NCBI RefSeq assembly: GCF_024741795.1
Contig: NZ_CP102950.1
Span: forward strand, 1,612,001 to 1,676,000
DNA: 64,000 nt
Source of the DNA: Arthrobacter sp. CJ23
GTDB taxonomy: Bacteria; Actinomycetota; Actinomycetes; Actinomycetales; Micrococcaceae
Reading direction: 5' to 3'
Part shown: positions 41,558 to 48,874 of the stretch, one piece after another
Numbering within the stretch: position 1 is the first letter of the stretch
How the letters are laid out: each line of letters opens with the position of its first letter
Translations under genes and position numbers: made by a program
Notes under the pieces: model-generated
What the model saw: the letters and a program-made list of their open reading frames with translations, nothing else
Database searches by the model: none
What the model was told of the DNA's origin: nothing

Positions 41558-41593
41558 TCACATGTGCATGACAGTTCTGTCATGCACATGTGA
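41558..41593 (+). repeat. 36-bp perfect palindrome upstream of the protease gene
   Basis: Arms of 17 bases, TCACATGTGCATGACAG (41558-41574) and CTGTCATGCACATGTGA (41577-41593), are exact reverse complements around a central TT. It covers the expected -10/+1 region behind the TTGACA at 41546. It is AT-balanced and lacks a U-tract, so it looks like a repressor operator or an RNA hairpin in the leader rather than a terminator. Confidence 0.9.
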
Positions 41594-41652
41594 AGCATGT
41601 GTATCACAACTCCTGTGCGGCTTCACGAGAGCCGCCTTTGCGAAAGGTACCC

Positions 41653-42516
41653 ATGAAAAGGCACAACGTCGGCTTGCTTGTCGGAGCTGCAGTACTGGCA
41701 CTCGCGTCCTCGATCGGTGGAACGGCCACGGCGTCGGACACCGCCACAGCGGCGTCGAGCGACATCCAGCCTGCATCACATACCGTGGATCCCTTCCAGA
41801 CCTCGGGGTCGGCCGCGTCTCCACTGGCCGACAAGTACTCGTTCGTCAGGACAGGAAAAAGCGGTGGCTTCTCCACGGATTCGGTCATCGGTGCGGATGG
41901 CCGGACGCAGGTCAGCAACACCACGGCGGCCCCCAACCGCTCCATTGTGCAGATTGAGTTCAACGGCGGCTACATCTGCTCGGGTGCCTTGATCTCGGAC
42001 GACACCGTCCTGACCGCCGGCCACTGCGTCCATGAAGGCGGCACGGGCTCCACTGCGGACTACTCCTGGGGAGTCCGCGTAGCCCCCGGCCGCAATGGCC
42101 TCACCGACCCCTACGGCACGTGCGGCGCCACCCAGCTCTACACGGACCAGCGGTGGATCGACTCGGCCAACACCAACGCGGACTGGGGTGTCATCAAGCT
42201 GGACTGCACGGTAGGCAACACCACCGGATGGCTCAACTACACCGGCACCACCGCAAGCCTGACGGGAACCACGGCAACCGTGCGGGGATATCCGGGGGAC
42301 AAGCCGCGGGGCACCATGTGGACCATGACCGGCTCGATCTCCTCGACGCAGGCCGAGAAGGTCTTCTACAAGATGGACACCTACGGAGGCCAGAGCGGGG
42401 CGCCGGTCTACAACAGCTCCACATCGATTGTGGCCATCCACACCAACGGCGGAACCACGAACTCGGGCACCCGCATCACGCCCACGCTGGCGTCCTACCT
42501 GGACACCGTTAAGTAG
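41653..42516 (+). CDS. Secreted trypsin-like serine protease (glutamyl endopeptidase type)
   Basis: 287-residue exported S1B-like protease. The signal peptide (KRHNVGLLVGAAVLALASS, cleavage likely near Ala26-Ala28) is followed by a propeptide up to about residue 75. The catalytic triad is His124 (LTAGHCVHEGG), Asp177 (NADWGVIKLD) and Ser248 (YGGQSGAPVY). The late His in VAIHTNGG is the residue that recognises Glu at P1 in V8-type enzymes. Cysteines pair around the active site (ICSG/GHC, YGTCG/LDC). AAAGG lies 6 bases before the ATG. Control by the palindrome upstream is likely. Confidence 0.92.
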   Translation: MKRHNVGLLVGAAVLALASSIGGTATASDTATAASSDIQPASHTVDPFQTSGSAASPLADKYSFVRTGKSGGFSTDSVIGADGRTQVSNTTAAPNRSIVQIEFNGGYICSGALISDDTVLTAGHCVHEGGTGSTADYSWGVRVAPGRNGLTDPYGTCGATQLYTDQRWIDSANTNADWGVIKLDCTVGNTTGWLNYTGTTASLTGTTATVRGYPGDKPRGTMWTMTGSISSTQAEKVFYKMDTYGGQSGAPVYNSSTSIVAIHTNGGTTNSGTRITPTLASYLDTVK

Positions 42517-42632
42517 CACGGATCTTTGCAGCACTGGTCCCCGCGGCACGCGTTGCGGGGACCAGCTGCGTCCTCTCCAAGCCACCCGGCTACGATGGCC
42601 GGGTAAGAATGAGACCGGAAGGAGGCGCAACA

Positions 42633-43319
42633 GTGGACGGCATTTCCCTGCGCCTCGAGCCTCTCGACCAAGTCCTCATCGAGAGCCCGCTTGACCACCC
42701 GGCCCAGGCCAGGGCCCGCCGCTTCGCGAATGAGCGGGACCGCGCCGAGTTTGTGGCCGGTCGTCAGGCACTGCGGCGCTTTGCCGCCGGTCTCCTCGCG
42801 GTTGGGCCGGAGCGGCTCGTCCCGGTCTACGTTTGCCCCCAGTGCGGCCCCGGCCAGGACCACGGGCGGCCCGGGTTCATGCTCGACGGAGGTCCGGCAC
42901 CGCTGCTGCTCAGCGCCTCCCGCGCGGCCGGCTGGGTGCTGCTCGCCGCCGTCGTGCATCCTGACCCGGGCGAGAGACTGGGCGTCGACCTTGAGGACAC
43001 CGCGAAGACCGGCTTCGAAGGCTTCGACGACGTGGCGCTGACGCCTGCGGAGAAGGACCATCTGGGCTCGCTGCCGGTCAGGGCACAGGCTGCCGGGCGC
43101 GCCCGGCTCTGGGCCCGCAAGGAGGCCTGGCTCAAGATGACCAGCGAGGGGCTCCGGACAGACCCGTCGGGCCTGGACGTCCTGGACCGGCCCGGACTCA
43201 CGGACCTTGACCTGGCAGGATTTCCAGTGCCTGGCCATGCCGTGCCCAGCCCCGGAGCCGCCCTGCGCATCGAGGGACGGCCGCCGTCCGGACTCGTGGC
43301 GGCGCTGGCCCTGGGCTGA
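42633..43319 (+). CDS. 4'-phosphopantetheinyl transferase
   Basis: 228-residue Sfp/AcpT-like enzyme that moves the phosphopantetheine arm of CoA to a serine on carrier domains. The magnesium-binding motif is GVDLED and the second motif is WARKEAWLKMTSEGL. The start uses GTG 42633 with AAGGAGG 7 bases upstream; a more distal ATG at 42609 is possible but adds 8 non-conserved residues. TACGAT at 42591-42596 may be the -10. It lies 1.45 kb from the Pls-type synthetase on the other strand, whose carrier Ser would be a natural substrate. Confidence 0.9.
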   Translation: MDGISLRLEPLDQVLIESPLDHPAQARARRFANERDRAEFVAGRQALRRFAAGLLAVGPERLVPVYVCPQCGPGQDHGRPGFMLDGGPAPLLLSASRAAGWVLLAAVVHPDPGERLGVDLEDTAKTGFEGFDDVALTPAEKDHLGSLPVRAQAAGRARLWARKEAWLKMTSEGLRTDPSGLDVLDRPGLTDLDLAGFPVPGHAVPSPGAALRIEGRPPSGLVAALALG

Positions 43320-43366: not shown

Positions 43367-44761
43367 CTAGCAGCCCCGGACAGGCAGCGGCGGCAGGGCC
43401 CCCTCGTACAACCACGGCCCCAGGACCGCGGCAGAGTCGAGGCCCGGCACGGCGGCATCCGCGGCGGCGATGAACTCCGGGGTGGACACCGAACCGTGCC
43501 GCTTGGCGGTGGTCCACTGCTGCAGGAAGTCGAAGAACGCGGCATCGCCGGCGGCGCACCGGACGGCATGCACGGCCAGGGCGCCGCGCTTGTAGACCCG
43601 GTCATCGAACATCAGGTCCGGCCCAGGGTCTCCGACCATCAGGTCCTGCGGCGAGGAGTTGAGCTTCTTCCAGGCTGCCCGGGCGCGCTCGGCCACGGGC
43701 AGGGTGCCGGATTCTTCCGACCACAGCCACTCGGCATAGCAGGCGAAGCCTTCGTGCAGCCAGATATCCTTCCAGTTGCTCACTGTGAGCGAATTTCCGA
43801 ACCATTGGTGCGACAGTTCGTGCGCGATCAGCCGCTGGGCCTCCCATTCGTCGCGCATGTGGTTCCGGCCGAAAATCGACAGCGTCTGCGCCTCGAGCGG
43901 GATCTCCAGCTCGTCCTCGGTCACCACGGCCGTGTACTCGGTGAAGGGGTAGGGTCCGAAGCATTCTTCGAAGGTGCGCATCATGTCCGGCTGGCGGCGC
44001 AGTCCTTCACGCGCCTCCTCTTCCAGCTGCCTGGGCACTGCCACGAACTGGCGGACCCTGTGGTGCGGGTTCTCGGGATTCAGCGCCACCAGCTCGTAGC
44101 GGCCGATCTGCACGGTGGCCAAGTACGTGGACATGGGCTCGGCGTGTTCGTAGGTCCAGGTTTCGCGGCTGGACTTGCGCGTCCTCGAGACAAGGCTGCC
44201 ATTGCACACGGCCCGGTAGTTGTCGTCGGTGGTCACCGCGATCCGGAAGCTCGACTTGTGCCGCGGGTGGTCGTTGCACGGGAACCAGGACGCGGCGCCG
44301 TTCGGCTGCCCGGCCACCAGCACGCCGTCGTTGAGCTCCTCCCAGCCGACATCGCCCCACAGCCCCCTGCGCGGCTGCGGGTTGCCCTCGTAGCGGATGT
44401 CAAGGCTGAATTCGTGGCCGGGTTCCAGCACCGAGGGGAGGGACACCACCAGGTGCTCGGCGCGCTGGTTGAACTTCTGGATCTTCCTTCCATCCAGCTG
44501 GACCTTGGACGCCTTCAGCCCCACGAGGTCGAGAACCAGCTGCGAGGTGGACTTCAGCACCACACAGCGCAGCACGGCCCGGCCGATCAGCTTGTTGCTG
44601 CCCAGCCGGCAGTCCAGCTCCAGCTCGTAGCGGTCCACGCGGTACACGGTGCTGCCATGGTCGAGCGTATAGGGATCCGCGTTCGCGGCGTGTGCATGGA
44701 GTGCGTAGGAAACCGGAGGTTTAGCGGCGGTCCCGGTGCTGGATTGGTCCCTCGGTGTCAT
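43367..44761 (-). CDS. M1-family zinc metallopeptidase
   Basis: 464-residue gluzincin aminopeptidase. The zinc site HExxHx18E is complete: His314, Glu315, His318 in AHELSHQWFGNS and Glu337 in WLHEGFACYAEW. The substrate-side motif before it reads EDELEIPLEAQT instead of the usual GAMEN, so exopeptidase specificity may differ. It lacks the C-terminal helical domain of large M1 enzymes and has no signal peptide. ATG 44761 lies 10 bases after the stop of the Pls-type synthetase, so both are one transcription unit. It is a candidate depolymerase for the synthetase product. Confidence 0.9.
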   Translation of the reverse strand: MTPRDQSSTGTAAKPPVSYALHAHAANADPYTLDHGSTVYRVDRYELELDCRLGSNKLIGRAVLRCVVLKSTSQLVLDLVGLKASKVQLDGRKIQKFNQRAEHLVVSLPSVLEPGHEFSLDIRYEGNPQPRRGLWGDVGWEELNDGVLVAGQPNGAASWFPCNDHPRHKSSFRIAVTTDDNYRAVCNGSLVSRTRKSSRETWTYEHAEPMSTYLATVQIGRYELVALNPENPHHRVRQFVAVPRQLEEEAREGLRRQPDMMRTFEECFGPYPFTEYTAVVTEDELEIPLEAQTLSIFGRNHMRDEWEAQRLIAHELSHQWFGNSLTVSNWKDIWLHEGFACYAEWLWSEESGTLPVAERARAAWKKLNSSPQDLMVGDPGPDLMFDDRVYKRGALAVHAVRCAAGDAAFFDFLQQWTTAKRHGSVSTPEFIAAADAAVPGLDSAAVLGPWLYEGALPPLPVRGC

Positions 44762-44771
44762 GAAATTCAAT

Positions 44772-47700
44772 CTACTTGGCACCGGCCGACGCTGGGGCCG
44801 GACCCTCCCATGGACTCACGGGATTTCCCATCCAATACGTCCCCGCCGGGACGGTTTCGCCGCGCATGACCAACGACGCCGGACCAACCGTGCCGCCCGC
44901 GCCGATGCTGGCAGCGGGGAGAATGACGCCGTGCGGGCCCATCGTGGCACCATTGCCCAGCGTCACGGTGTCGATGCTCATGATGCGATCGTGGAAGAGG
45001 TGCGTCTGGACGACGCAGCCGCGGTTGACGGTGGAGTTTTCCCCGAGGGTGACGAGGTCGGCCTCGGGCAACCAGTAGCTTTCGCACCACGTGCCTCGCC
45101 CGATTTTGGCGCCCAGGCCCCGCAGCCACCAGACCAGCGCGGGGGTTCCTGCTGCCGAACGGGCAAACCAGGGGGCGCTGACCATTTCAATGAAGGTGTC
45201 CACTACCTCGTTGCGCCAGATGAATGAGCTCCACAGCGGATGTTGGCCGGCCCTGATGGTCCCCACGAGGAGCCACTTCGCCGCAACGGAGCTGAGCGCC
45301 GCCACCGCACCGGCCGCCATCACCGCGGCCCCGCACAGCAGCGCCGCCACCCAGTATGCGGACACGGTGGCGATCCAGTCGAGGGCAAGCATGACCCCCA
45401 CCGCTATGCCTGCCGTCAGGATGACGGGCAGCAGGCGGCACAGTTCCCAGACGGCGCGGGCCACCTTGAGCCGCAGGGGCGGCTGGAACGTGAGGCTCTG
45501 GTCGGCATCGACGGCGGTGCGGCGCAGCCTGACGGGCGGGCTGCCCAGCCAGGACGTGCCGGACTTGGCCTTGGCCGGGGTGGCTGACAGCACGGCCACG
45601 AGCGAGTTCTTGGGCACGTTGCGCCCGGCCGCCGTCATTCCCGAGTTGCCCAGGAAGGAGCGCTTGCCGATCTTGGCGGGGGCGATCTTCATCCAGCCGC
45701 CACCGAGTTCGTAGGAGGCCACCATGGTGTCGTCGGCCAGGAACGCGCCGTCGCCGATGGTGGTCATGCGGGGGAGCAGCAGAACCGTGGAGGCTTCCAC
45801 GTTGCGGCCCACCTTGGCGCCAAGGAGCCGCAGCCACACGGGGGTGAAGAGGCTGGCGTAGATGGGGAAGAGCAGGTCTCGGGCCAGGTCCAGGAGGCGT
45901 TCGGTGGCCCAGACCTGCCAGCCGACACGGCTCCGGACGCGGTAATGGCCCTCCTTCAGGCCGAGTCCCAGCAGCCGTGCGACGGCCAGGATCAGCAGCA
46001 TGTTGCCGAAGAACCAGGCAAGCGCAGCGAACGGAACGGCCAACACGAGCTGCGGCAGGGCCTCCTGGAGCGATTCGCGGCCCTGGATGAAAGTGAGGAC
46101 CACCAGGGCGCCGGCAAGGGCGGACACATAGGGGATGAGGGCCAGCAGGGCGGACGCCGTGGCGAACAAGCCAAACCAGAGACGGTTCACCAGCGGACGG
46201 CTGGCGGGCTGTTCGGGCCAGTCGCGCTTGGCCTTGCCTCGGCGTTCGGCGGGGGAGCCGGCCACGAAGTGCCCGGCCTTGACCTTGCCGAGCACGGCGG
46301 AGCCGGCCTCGACGTGGGCGCCGGCACCGATGCTCGCGCCCGGCATCAGGGTGCTCCGGGCGCCGACGACGGCCCCGGCCCCCACATGGATACTGCCGAT
46401 GTGGACGAGGTCGCCGTCGATCCACCAGCCGGAGAGGTCAACTTCCGGCTCCACGCTGGAGCCACTGCCGAGGGACAGGAATCCGGTGACCGGGGGCAGG
46501 GAATGCAGGTGCACGTCCCGGCCGATTTTTGCCCCCAAGGCCCTGGCATAGTAGGGAACGAAGGGGGCGCTGGCCAGGCCGATGGCGCCAGACAGAGCCT
46601 GGACCTGCTCGGCGAGCCACAGCCTCAGGTGGGTCTTGCCGGAGCGCGGATACGTTCCGGGCTGGACGCGACGCAACAGGAAGCGGGCTGCCGCGACAGA
46701 GATGGCCATGCGGCCCAACGGACTGACGAACACCAGCCACGACGCGCCAATCCACCACCAGGAAACGGCCGGGGCTGCAGAGAATCCGGCAAAGTCTGCC
46801 AACAGGCGGTTGGCCGCCATCAGGTAGGTGAGCCAGCGCATGCCCACCAGGATGTGCAGCGGAACCCCCATGAGGATCTGGAAGAGCTGGGATTTCAGGG
46901 CGGTCGGACGCACGGTGCGTTCGGCCGCAGGGCCGGGGATCCCGCCGTCGGGCAGCGACTGCCGGGCCGTGTCCACGAGGGCTCCCACGCGCGGGGTCGC
47001 GTAGATGTCCGCCACCGTCACAGTGGGGTAGCGGATGCGCAGGGCCGAGACGAGCTGCGCCGCGGCCAGGGATCCGCCGCCATAGGCGAAGAAGTCGGCG
47101 TCGAGGGAGGTGACCGGGCTGCCGAGGACGGCTTCCCACTGCTCCACGATCCAGCGGGCGTCGTCGGGGAGGTTGAGCGGGGCCTCGCCGGCCGCAGCGG
47201 CGGCGGCGCCGGCCAAGGGCCAGTGCAGGGCATGGCGGTCCACCTTGCCGCTGGTCTTGGTGGGCAGGGACTCCACCACCGTGAGCAGCGGGATCAGCGC
47301 CGCCGGCAGGCTCCCGCCCAAGAGTTCGCGCGCGGCGGCCAGGTCAATCGCGGCACCGTCGGCCGGGGCTAGGTAGCCCACCAGGATCTGGTTGCCCGCC
47401 GCCGTGGTCTGCACGGCGGCTGCGGCGCCCGCAACGCCGGGCAGGGCCTGGAGTGCGGCATCGACTTCACCGAGTTCGATGCGGCGGCCGCCCAGCTTGA
47501 CCTGTTCGTCCGCGCGGCCCATGAACACCAGCCCGGCGCTCTCATACCGCACCAGGTCGCCGGAGCGGTAGGCCCGCTCCCAGCCCAGGGATTCCATGGG
47601 GGCGTACTTCTCGGCGTCTTTCGCGGGGTCCAGGTAGCGGGCCAGGCCGACGCCGCCGATGATCAGTTCGCCGGTCTCACCCTCGGCGACCGGGACGCCG

Positions 47701-48728
47701 TCGGAATCGACGACGGCGAGATCCCAGCCGTCCAGCGGCAGCCCGATCCGCACGGGGCCGGGTCCGCCAAGGGGCGCCGCACAGGCGACCACGGTGGCCT
47801 CGGTGGGTCCGTAGGTGTTCCAGACTTCCCGGCCCTCGACGGCGAGCCGCTCCGCGAGCTCGGATGGGCAGGCTTCGCCGCCGAAGATGAGCAGGCGCAC
47901 GTTTTCGAGCGATTCGGCCGGCCACAGGGCAGCAAGGGTGGGAACGGTGGAGACCACCGTGATGCCGTGGCTGATGAGCCAGGGGCCAAGGTCCATGCCG
48001 GTCCGGACCAGGGCTCGGGGCGCGGGCACCAGGCACGCGCCGTGGCGCCAGGCCAGCCACATCTCTTCGCAGGAGGCGTCGAAGGCAACGGACAGCCCGG
48101 CCAGGACGCGGTCATGCGGACCCATCGGCTCGGACTGGAGGAACAGCCGGGCCTCCGCGTCAACGAAGGCGGCAGCCGAGCGGTGCCGCACCGCGACGCC
48201 TTTCGGCGTTCCGGTGGATCCGGAGGTGAAGATGATCCAGGAATCGTCGTCCAGACGTGGCTTCCGCGCTTCCGCAAGCGGCCCGCGGGGCTCTCCGGCG
48301 GCGTCGAGCCGCAGCCCGGCCCGCACGATCCCGGCAACCTGGGCTTCGCCGAACACAAGACGGGCACGCTCCTCGGGGTCGTCCGCGTCAACAGGCACAT
48401 ACGCGGCGCCGGCCATGAGGATGCCCAGGATGGCGATGTAGAGCTCATTGGTGCCTGAGGGGATGCGCACGCCGATCTTGTCGCCGCTCCCCAACCCCGC
48501 TGCATGGAGTGTCCGCGCAAAGCCGTGGACTGCCTTGAGCAGGTCCGCATAGCTCAGGGACTTGCGGCCGTCGTCCAGCGCGGAGGCCTCGGGAAACGTG
48601 CTTGCGGTTTCCTCAAGGATGCCGATCAGGGTTCGTTCAGCCGGGGCTGCTGCAGCTCCCGGCAGTTGGGGCAGATGCAGGGTCTGTACATCCGCTTGAT
48701 CGGCCTGTTCCCGTTGTTCGTTGCTCAC
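44772..48728 (-). CDS. Pls/PosA-type single-module peptide synthetase
   Basis: 1318-residue membrane synthetase for homo-polyamino acids. The adenylation domain (about 30-500) carries FTSGSTGTPKGVAVRH, YGPTEAT, YRSGDLVR and Lys495 in TKTSGKVDR. The carrier domain has Ser553 in AYGGGSLAAAQ. There is no condensation or thioesterase domain. Instead there are six hydrophobic segments that alternate with three left-handed beta-helix domains (IGAGAHVEAGSAVLG, GRNVEASTVLLLP, VTLGNGATMGPHGV). That is the layout of Streptomyces Pls, which makes epsilon-poly-lysine. The pocket residues read D217 A218 E221 S260 I281 G283 T305 V313 V314 K495, close to lysine-type codes. GTG 48728 gives MSNEQREQ; a GTG at 48776 would add 16 residues. 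Confidence 0.9.
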   Translation of the reverse strand: MSNEQREQADQADVQTLHLPQLPGAAAAPAERTLIGILEETASTFPEASALDDGRKSLSYADLLKAVHGFARTLHAAGLGSGDKIGVRIPSGTNELYIAILGILMAGAAYVPVDADDPEERARLVFGEAQVAGIVRAGLRLDAAGEPRGPLAEARKPRLDDDSWIIFTSGSTGTPKGVAVRHRSAAAFVDAEARLFLQSEPMGPHDRVLAGLSVAFDASCEEMWLAWRHGACLVPAPRALVRTGMDLGPWLISHGITVVSTVPTLAALWPAESLENVRLLIFGGEACPSELAERLAVEGREVWNTYGPTEATVVACAAPLGGPGPVRIGLPLDGWDLAVVDSDGVPVAEGETGELIIGGVGLARYLDPAKDAEKYAPMESLGWERAYRSGDLVRYESAGLVFMGRADEQVKLGGRRIELGEVDAALQALPGVAGAAAAVQTTAAGNQILVGYLAPADGAAIDLAAARELLGGSLPAALIPLLTVVESLPTKTSGKVDRHALHWPLAGAAAAAAGEAPLNLPDDARWIVEQWEAVLGSPVTSLDADFFAYGGGSLAAAQLVSALRIRYPTVTVADIYATPRVGALVDTARQSLPDGGIPGPAAERTVRPTALKSQLFQILMGVPLHILVGMRWLTYLMAANRLLADFAGFSAAPAVSWWWIGASWLVFVSPLGRMAISVAAARFLLRRVQPGTYPRSGKTHLRLWLAEQVQALSGAIGLASAPFVPYYARALGAKIGRDVHLHSLPPVTGFLSLGSGSSVEPEVDLSGWWIDGDLVHIGSIHVGAGAVVGARSTLMPGASIGAGAHVEAGSAVLGKVKAGHFVAGSPAERRGKAKRDWPEQPASRPLVNRLWFGLFATASALLALIPYVSALAGALVVLTFIQGRESLQEALPQLVLAVPFAALAWFFGNMLLILAVARLLGLGLKEGHYRVRSRVGWQVWATERLLDLARDLLFPIYASLFTPVWLRLLGAKVGRNVEASTVLLLPRMTTIGDGAFLADDTMVASYELGGGWMKIAPAKIGKRSFLGNSGMTAAGRNVPKNSLVAVLSATPAKAKSGTSWLGSPPVRLRRTAVDADQSLTFQPPLRLKVARAVWELCRLLPVILTAGIAVGVMLALDWIATVSAYWVAALLCGAAVMAAGAVAALSSVAAKWLLVGTIRAGQHPLWSSFIWRNEVVDTFIEMVSAPWFARSAAGTPALVWWLRGLGAKIGRGTWCESYWLPEADLVTLGENSTVNRGCVVQTHLFHDRIMSIDTVTLGNGATMGPHGVILPAASIGAGGTVGPASLVMRGETVPAGTYWMGNPVSPWEGPAPASAGAK

Positions 48729-48816
48729 GTCGCCAGCATGGCCTTTCAAGGTGAACAAAAGGTGTCTTGTGTTCACCGGAGTTCATGTTGTGTTCGCCTG
48801 CGCGTCCACTTAAGGA

Positions 48817-48874
48817 CATCCGGCGTTGGGCTTCACGGCGTTGGAACTGCACGTCGTGGGCCCAACGCCGGATG
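48817..48874 (-). terminator. 15-bp inverted repeat after the oxidoreductase gene
   Basis: CATCCGGCGTTGGGC (48817-48831) pairs perfectly with GCCCAACGCCGGATG (48860-48874) around a 28-base loop. It sits between the qor-like gene and the synthetase, both on the minus strand. It lacks a U-tract, so it may be a terminator or a transcript-stability element. Confidence 0.6.

Follow-up and report, generated by a model that had tools for sequence, protein, structure and literature searches.

What do a poly-amino-acid synthetase gene and the M1 metallopeptidase gene that directly follows it do in a soil member of the Micrococcaceae? The question is raised by a locus in a 64,000-nucleotide stretch of the genome of Arthrobacter sp. 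CJ23 (contig NZ_CP102950.1, positions 1,612,001 to 1,676,000; hereafter 'the window'), which a preliminary description had read as a Pls-like synthetase with a lysine-type adenylation pocket that could form a synthesis/turnover pair with the peptidase. Epsilon-poly-lysine, the product of Pls, is an antimicrobial polymer. The reading that best explains the whole, and that we hold with high confidence, is that the locus is a pls-pldII-type pair that would make and hydrolyse epsilon-poly-L-lysine.

Layout, pocket and phylogeny of the synthetase

The pls protein scores 710 bits against TIGR02353, the model of the Pls/PosA family (curated cut-off, 423 bits). Four Pfam families are reported for it, AMP-binding, PP-binding and Hexapep over their cut-offs and Hexapep_2 slightly under, and, as the preliminary description had stated, this set includes neither a condensation nor a thioesterase domain. 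An AlphaFold2 model of the C-terminal half (residues 601-1318), built from a 51-sequence alignment, has a mean predicted local distance difference test score (pLDDT) of 89.3 and a predicted TM-score (pTM) of 0.90, and consists of three repeats, each a long helical pair followed by a beta-helix, for six helical stretches and three beta-helices. The best Foldseek matches of the model in the PDB are hexapeptide acyltransferases, for example serine acetyltransferase, with TM-scores that are low because each match spans just part of the model. A plain hydropathy scan of the same half flags only the segments of helix pairs 2 and 3; the model and the published layout together suggest that the first helix pair also spans the membrane. 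The three-repeat model agrees with the Pls layout in print, in which six membrane segments lie between three acetyltransferase-related domains (PMC8117764). The window protein has the full succession of adenylation domain, carrier (thiolation) domain and three tandem C-terminal domains with six membrane segments, and the family score, the two N-terminal domains and the three-repeat model thus bear out the complete Pls layout, with its six membrane segments and three beta-helix domains, that had been proposed from the sequence.

The pocket residues D217, A218, E221, S260, I281, G283, T305, V313, V314 and K495 (numbering of the 1318-residue form), at positions set by motif and GrsA numbering rather than by an alignment to GrsA, read D-A-E-S-I-G-T-V-V-K, which reproduces at all ten positions the code first read by eye. 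Among solved structures, the closest in sequence is 7wew, an entry named epsilon-poly-L-lysine synthase (match of 651 bits), which we take to be the Streptomyces albulus enzyme; the adenylation domains are 66.2% identical over 477 amino acids, and the pocket codes are equal at 10 of 10 positions. The window code equals also that of L241, a locus from a search of genomes taken as Corynebacterium, and a lysine-type pocket is upheld by both comparisons. Structural evidence from the paper on PosA, a homologue, backs the pocket positions D217, 218, E221, T304 and S313, and the pocket of the ornithine enzyme PosA is different, reading DMEHNGTVSK; a Met218Ala change in PosA raised lysine use nearly 10-fold (PMC10522769), and position 218 is Ala in the window protein. 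Among Pls loci, in regions fetched as a chosen subset of longer match lists, DAESIGTVVK is found in 140 of the first 150 loci and DAESIGTVIK in the remaining 10, and 40 further loci comprise 36 with DAESIGTVVK, two with DAESVGTVVK, and one each with DFECLSAVTK (L201) and DGESVSVVNK (L202). The last two are distant Pls-like synthetases (35% identity) with differing pockets; a pocket one position off that of L202 is listed with an unknown substrate in PMC10522769.

The pls gene of Corynebacterium variabile, expressed in S. coelicolor, makes epsilon-poly-L-lysine (Jiang 2021, PMC8117764). Locus L241 carries both primer-defined ends of that gene, namely the 27 bases that follow the start codon and the final residues ahead of the stop, and because the ends given by the printed primers agree we assign L241, on sequence, to C. 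variabile or a very close relative. The exact primer pattern had no match in 401 genomes, a set that does not include the genome of L241 (G1372), and this search could not have matched L241 pls because the primer has ATG and L241 has GTG. L241 Pls is 52.9% identical to the Pls of L183, one of ten loci that we term 'S. albulus-type' (adenylation domain 75-94% identical to 7wew), in line with the printed 51%. The window Pls is 62.1% identical over 1281 amino acids to L241 Pls, the nearest verified enzyme recovered, and 54.9% identical over 1267 amino acids to L183 Pls. In a careful tree of 34 hand-chosen rows, with only L201 and L202 as outgroup and with the characterised diaminopropionate, diaminobutyrate and ornithine synthetases left out, the window protein groups with L241 and five other rows in a clade of seven (support 99/96), the S. 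albulus-type enzymes fall outside it, and L201 and L202 lie further out on long branches. We rely on this tree because a larger one (75 rows, quick method) contains the long branches L219, L201 and L202. Since L241 falls inside the clade and the S. albulus-type enzymes outside it, proven enzymes bracket the window Pls in this phylogeny. Because its pocket equals that of 7wew, its layout matches, and L241, from its own supported clade, shares 62% identity with it, we conclude that the product of the window Pls is most likely epsilon-poly-L-lysine.

Pairing with a short M1 peptidase

The window M1 protein has an intact zinc motif, HEXXH-18-E, as do 169 of 172 M1 proteins examined, with two of the three misses (L045 and L133) being extraction errors that returned the pls frame. 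A GAMEN motif and a long C-terminal domain are features of full-length aminopeptidase N. None of the 169 M1 relatives with the zinc motif has GAMEN, 147 of them have P-x-E-x-Q ahead of the zinc motif, and the median distance from HEXXH to the end is 150 residues, which does not fit aminopeptidase N; against the NCBIfam model of that enzyme the window M1 scores 86 bits (cut-off, 591).

PldII of S. albulus degrades epsilon-polylysine, and its gene overlaps pls by 4 bases (PMC4361855). At L183 the M1 gene starts in a 4-base overlap with pls, as reported for pldII, and because of this overlap, its position and an adenylation domain 94% identical to 7wew, we take the L183 M1 to be PldII. The window M1 is 40% identical to it over 462 amino acids and is, by position and sequence, its counterpart. 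The S. albulus-type overlap, of the kind linked to translational coupling, is absent from the window, where pls and the M1 gene share the minus strand and 10 bases separate the pls stop from the M1 start ATG 44761, the gap originally noted; the alternative start GTG 44782 would create an 11-base overlap instead. Because of the short gap and shared strand, we infer that the two genes are co-transcribed.

The pairing is widespread. Among 190 Pls loci, with near-copies within species counted separately, 152 have at least 3 kb of sequence downstream, and 134 of these 152 have a same-strand M1 gene within 700 bases of pls, as do 37 of the 38 loci with less. The 18 loci with no adjacent M1 comprise 13 of a second paralogue clade together with L096, L196, L220 and the two relatives whose codes differ, L201 and L202; an M1 gene is displaced to 2.2 kb on in L096, 3.4 kb on in L145, L148 and L150, and 3.8 kb on in L149. 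The second clade, which occurs in the same family of bacteria, includes L144, L146, L147, L149 and L151-L156, with code DAESIGTVIK and 45-53% identity to the window Pls, and, in the 75-row tree, also L145, L148 and L150 with the usual DAESIGTVVK code.

Together, the counterpart relationship to PldII and the adjacency in 134 of 152 loci support the proposed synthesis/turnover pair. Two corrections apply: such pairing is already described in print, and the window M1 has no S. albulus-type signal-like N-terminus.

Several observations weigh against a pair that makes and hydrolyses epsilon-poly-L-lysine. M1 is not essential to Pls: all 10 DAESIGTVIK loci are without an M1 gene within 700 bases; the S. 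albulus-type locus L196 has none; and, unlike L241, which has one downstream of pls, 9 of 9 other fetched Corynebacterium-type loci (L235-L239 and L242-L245, from 183 matching genomes) have none. Cultures of C. variabile itself gave no polymer, even though the gene is functional in S. coelicolor (PMC8117764). According to a review, inactivation of Pld and PldII left yield and chain length unchanged (PMC8506220), which disagrees with the report that repression of pldII in S. albulus by CRISPR interference (CRISPRi) led to chains over 40 residues (PMC9223678). Finally, the ten-residue code would also be compatible with a close lysine analogue as substrate.

Location of the peptidase and alternative readings

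The literature places PldII outside the membrane (PMC9223678). We scored the N-terminus of M1 proteins by hydropathy alone, as the best 15-residue mean, after dropping 4 of 176 as fragments of less than 300 amino acids (L091, L148, L149 and L150). Of the resulting 172 proteins, 160 score below 1.0, three score 1.0-1.1, and nine, all S. albulus-type, score at least 1.3. The nine have an arginine pair and a hydrophobic stretch at the N-terminus and scores of 1.36-2.47, and their loci form one clade of the 75-row Pls tree (SH-aLRT support, 93); the highest score among the other 163 is 1.09, with the window M1 at 0.21 and the L241 M1 at 0.05. Three Streptomyces-like genomes (G809, G751 and G681) hold both signal-bearing and signal-less pairs. 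Because its N-terminus is not signal-like by hydropathy, the window M1 probably acts in the cytoplasm. A difference between signal-less and signal-bearing M1 proteins was not found in our literature search, which ran largely without subscription papers.

We tentatively suggest, as a possibility that we would not yet favour, that outside the S. albulus clade Pls and M1 form an inside-acting system in which a cytoplasmic peptidase recycles or detoxifies polymer at the inner face of the membrane, and that the export signal is a later gain of strong secretors. If this is true, epsilon-polylysine may be a cell-associated or stored polymer, beyond its role as a secreted antimicrobial. Alternatively, the M1 protein could be exported without a classical signal, or held outside by Pls, and protect the envelope as is thought for S. 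albulus PldII; the protein family and operon position shared with PldII are consistent with this, but the gap in N-terminal hydropathy between the nine S. albulus-type proteins and all others makes it rather unlikely. It is also unlikely, and slightly more so, that the M1 protein is a general cytoplasmic peptidase that happens to be encoded downstream of pls, a bystander with no action on the polymer: its N-terminus and the several clades in which Pls has no adjacent M1 would fit, but same-strand adjacency holds across the class and extends to L183, an S. albulus-type locus that shows the overlap reported for pldII, and the genome's two other M1 matches lie in frames of 873-875 amino acids and are just 28-29% identical. 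That the window Pls makes another cationic homopolymer (poly-ornithine, poly-diaminobutyrate, poly-diaminopropionate or a beta-lysine polymer), as several polymers known from the family and the existence of differently coded relatives such as L201 and L202 might allow, is very improbable given the pocket shared with 7wew and L241, the contrast with PosA at position 218 and elsewhere, and the placement of L201 and L202, albeit on long branches, outside the Pls clade.

For the pls-pldII-type pair that we prefer, the following sequence of events would apply. Pls, a membrane enzyme, would activate L-lysine with ATP and load it on its own carrier domain, for which the Sfp-sized transferase encoded next to the pair is the probable priming enzyme; as the Pls literature implies, the three membrane-anchored beta-helix domains would link lysines via the epsilon-amine to yield epsilon-poly-L-lysine. 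The M1 peptidase, probably made from a transcript shared with pls, would hydrolyse the polymer; most likely cytoplasmic, it would remove polymer retained in, or taken back into, the cell and recover lysine.

Gene start, neighbouring genes and known systems

The pls reading frame extends upstream to 48776 (48776-44772, 1334 codons). Each of the 28 distinct loci with at least 80% identity, among them the window, has a GTTC-type eight-base block ahead of an in-frame GTG, with a spacing of 20 bases in 27 and 21 bases in one, and these loci share T at -7 (28/28) and A at -11 (27/28); the pattern was defined after viewing the alignment, with only exact duplicates removed, and the counts are a description and not a blind test. 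The block fades with distance, occurring in 30 of 49 loci at 74% identity or more, 5 of 39 at 66-74% and 0 of 58 below, and its chance rate is 0.016 matches per kb. Because the block is kept at a fixed spacing before an in-frame GTG, GTG 48728 is supported as the pls start, and the conservation suggests that the block is the promoter region of a leaderless pls mRNA. No sigma-70 consensus promoter was found upstream of pls, and the literature search returned neither the block nor a leaderless start of pls. Two further candidates were rejected: a regulon sharing the block, since the genome has one exact copy and one with two mismatches versus three for a reversed control, and an operator at a 28-base near-perfect palindrome (48750-48777), which, of 52 loci examined, is complete in none but the window, one other having a differing half-site pair. 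A perfect 15-base inverted repeat with no terminator-like T-run (48817-48874) lies between an alcohol dehydrogenase-like gene and pls and perhaps marks where transcription of the upstream gene stops.

Features of the pls-M1 locus (coordinates within the window)
Feature	Coordinates	Strand	Details
pls, Pls/PosA-family synthetase gene	48728-44772	minus	GTG start, 1318 aa; TIGR02353 710 bits; 7wew 651 bits
M1 metallopeptidase gene, PldII-like, short	44761-43367	minus	ATG, 464 aa; PF01433 and PF17900
Adenylation domain, code DAESIGTVVK	48659-47208	minus	phmmer to 7wew, residues 40-523 of P0001
Carrier (thiolation) domain, motif GGGS	47156-46971	minus	PF00550, residues 541-602 of P0001
C-terminal repeat 1, two predicted membrane helices and beta-helix	46898-46233	minus	AlphaFold2 model residues 11-232
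C-terminal repeat 2, two predicted membrane helices and beta-helix	46196-45522	minus	AlphaFold2 model residues 245-469
C-terminal repeat 3, two predicted membrane helices and beta-helix	45476-44829	minus	AlphaFold2 model residues 485-700
Conserved upstream block GACACCTTTTGTTCACCT	48766-48749	minus	fixed distance from GTG 48728; putative leaderless-mRNA promoter region
Sfp-sized phosphopantetheinyl transferase	42609-43319	plus	PF01648; convergent with pls-M1 pair

PF01648 matches two places in the genome, the phosphopantetheinyl transferase gene next to the pair, which is the sole Sfp-sized one, and a 118-aa frame; the former likely activates the Pls carrier domain. Its candidacy as a fixed part of the pair is weakened by its presence, convergent and within 3 kb, at just 59 of 152 loci, and such an arrangement beside a pls pair was not found in the texts available to the literature search. 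A trypsin-like protease gene (41590-42516) lies between pheT and the transferase gene, and a relative adjoins pheT in five of the loci fetched: L037, L039, L040 and L066 (Paenarthrobacter) and L067 (Arthrobacter).

At E <= 1e-150, the whole window Pls has matches in 79 of the 149 genomes from the family, in 65 of the 296 from the class and in 183 of the 242 from the genus inferred as Corynebacterium, and the 7wew domain alone, at E <= 1e-120, has matches in 167 of 392 genomes of the genus inferred as Streptomyces; among the best 80 of 592 places, the named relatives of the window pls, at 82-85%, are Paenarthrobacter and Arthrobacter. The pls-peptidase operon of Streptomyces and C. variabile (Jiang 2021, PMC8117764; reviewed in PMC8506220), the pocket, and Arthrobacter Pls homologues, which are listed in Jiang 2021 (PMC8117764), are already in print, and the window pair adds one example to them. 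The results add one genome, from a soil member of the Micrococcaceae, to the set open to tests of epsilon-polylysine synthesis, and identify a verified enzyme close to its own. They also sharpen the pairing into the question of why a widespread form of the pair seems to keep its peptidase inside, when the literature places the industrial producer's outside; the likely cytoplasmic peptidase is the aspect worth following.

The S. albulus pls-pldII operon resembles the window locus in having a short same-strand M1-type peptidase after the synthetase, an identical adenylation code and the same domain layout; the window differs in its 54.9% Pls identity (L183), its gap in place of an overlap, and an M1 N-terminus without the arginine pair and hydrophobic stretch. 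The C. variabile operon (L241) is closer, with 62.1% identity, the same code and clade, and an M1 protein that likewise has no signal-like N-terminus, but belongs to another species and has other neighbour genes. PosA, the delta-poly-L-ornithine synthetase of Acinetobacter baumannii, shares the family, the layout and the pocket Glu for the side-chain amine but differs in its pocket, DMEHNGTVSK. Routine genome mining with antiSMASH has flagged non-alpha poly-amino acid (NAPAA) regions in Pseudarthrobacter as epsilon-polylysine-like (PMC12025171); these appear to be loci of the same type, for which the available text of that source mentions neither the peptidase, the start nor the transferase.

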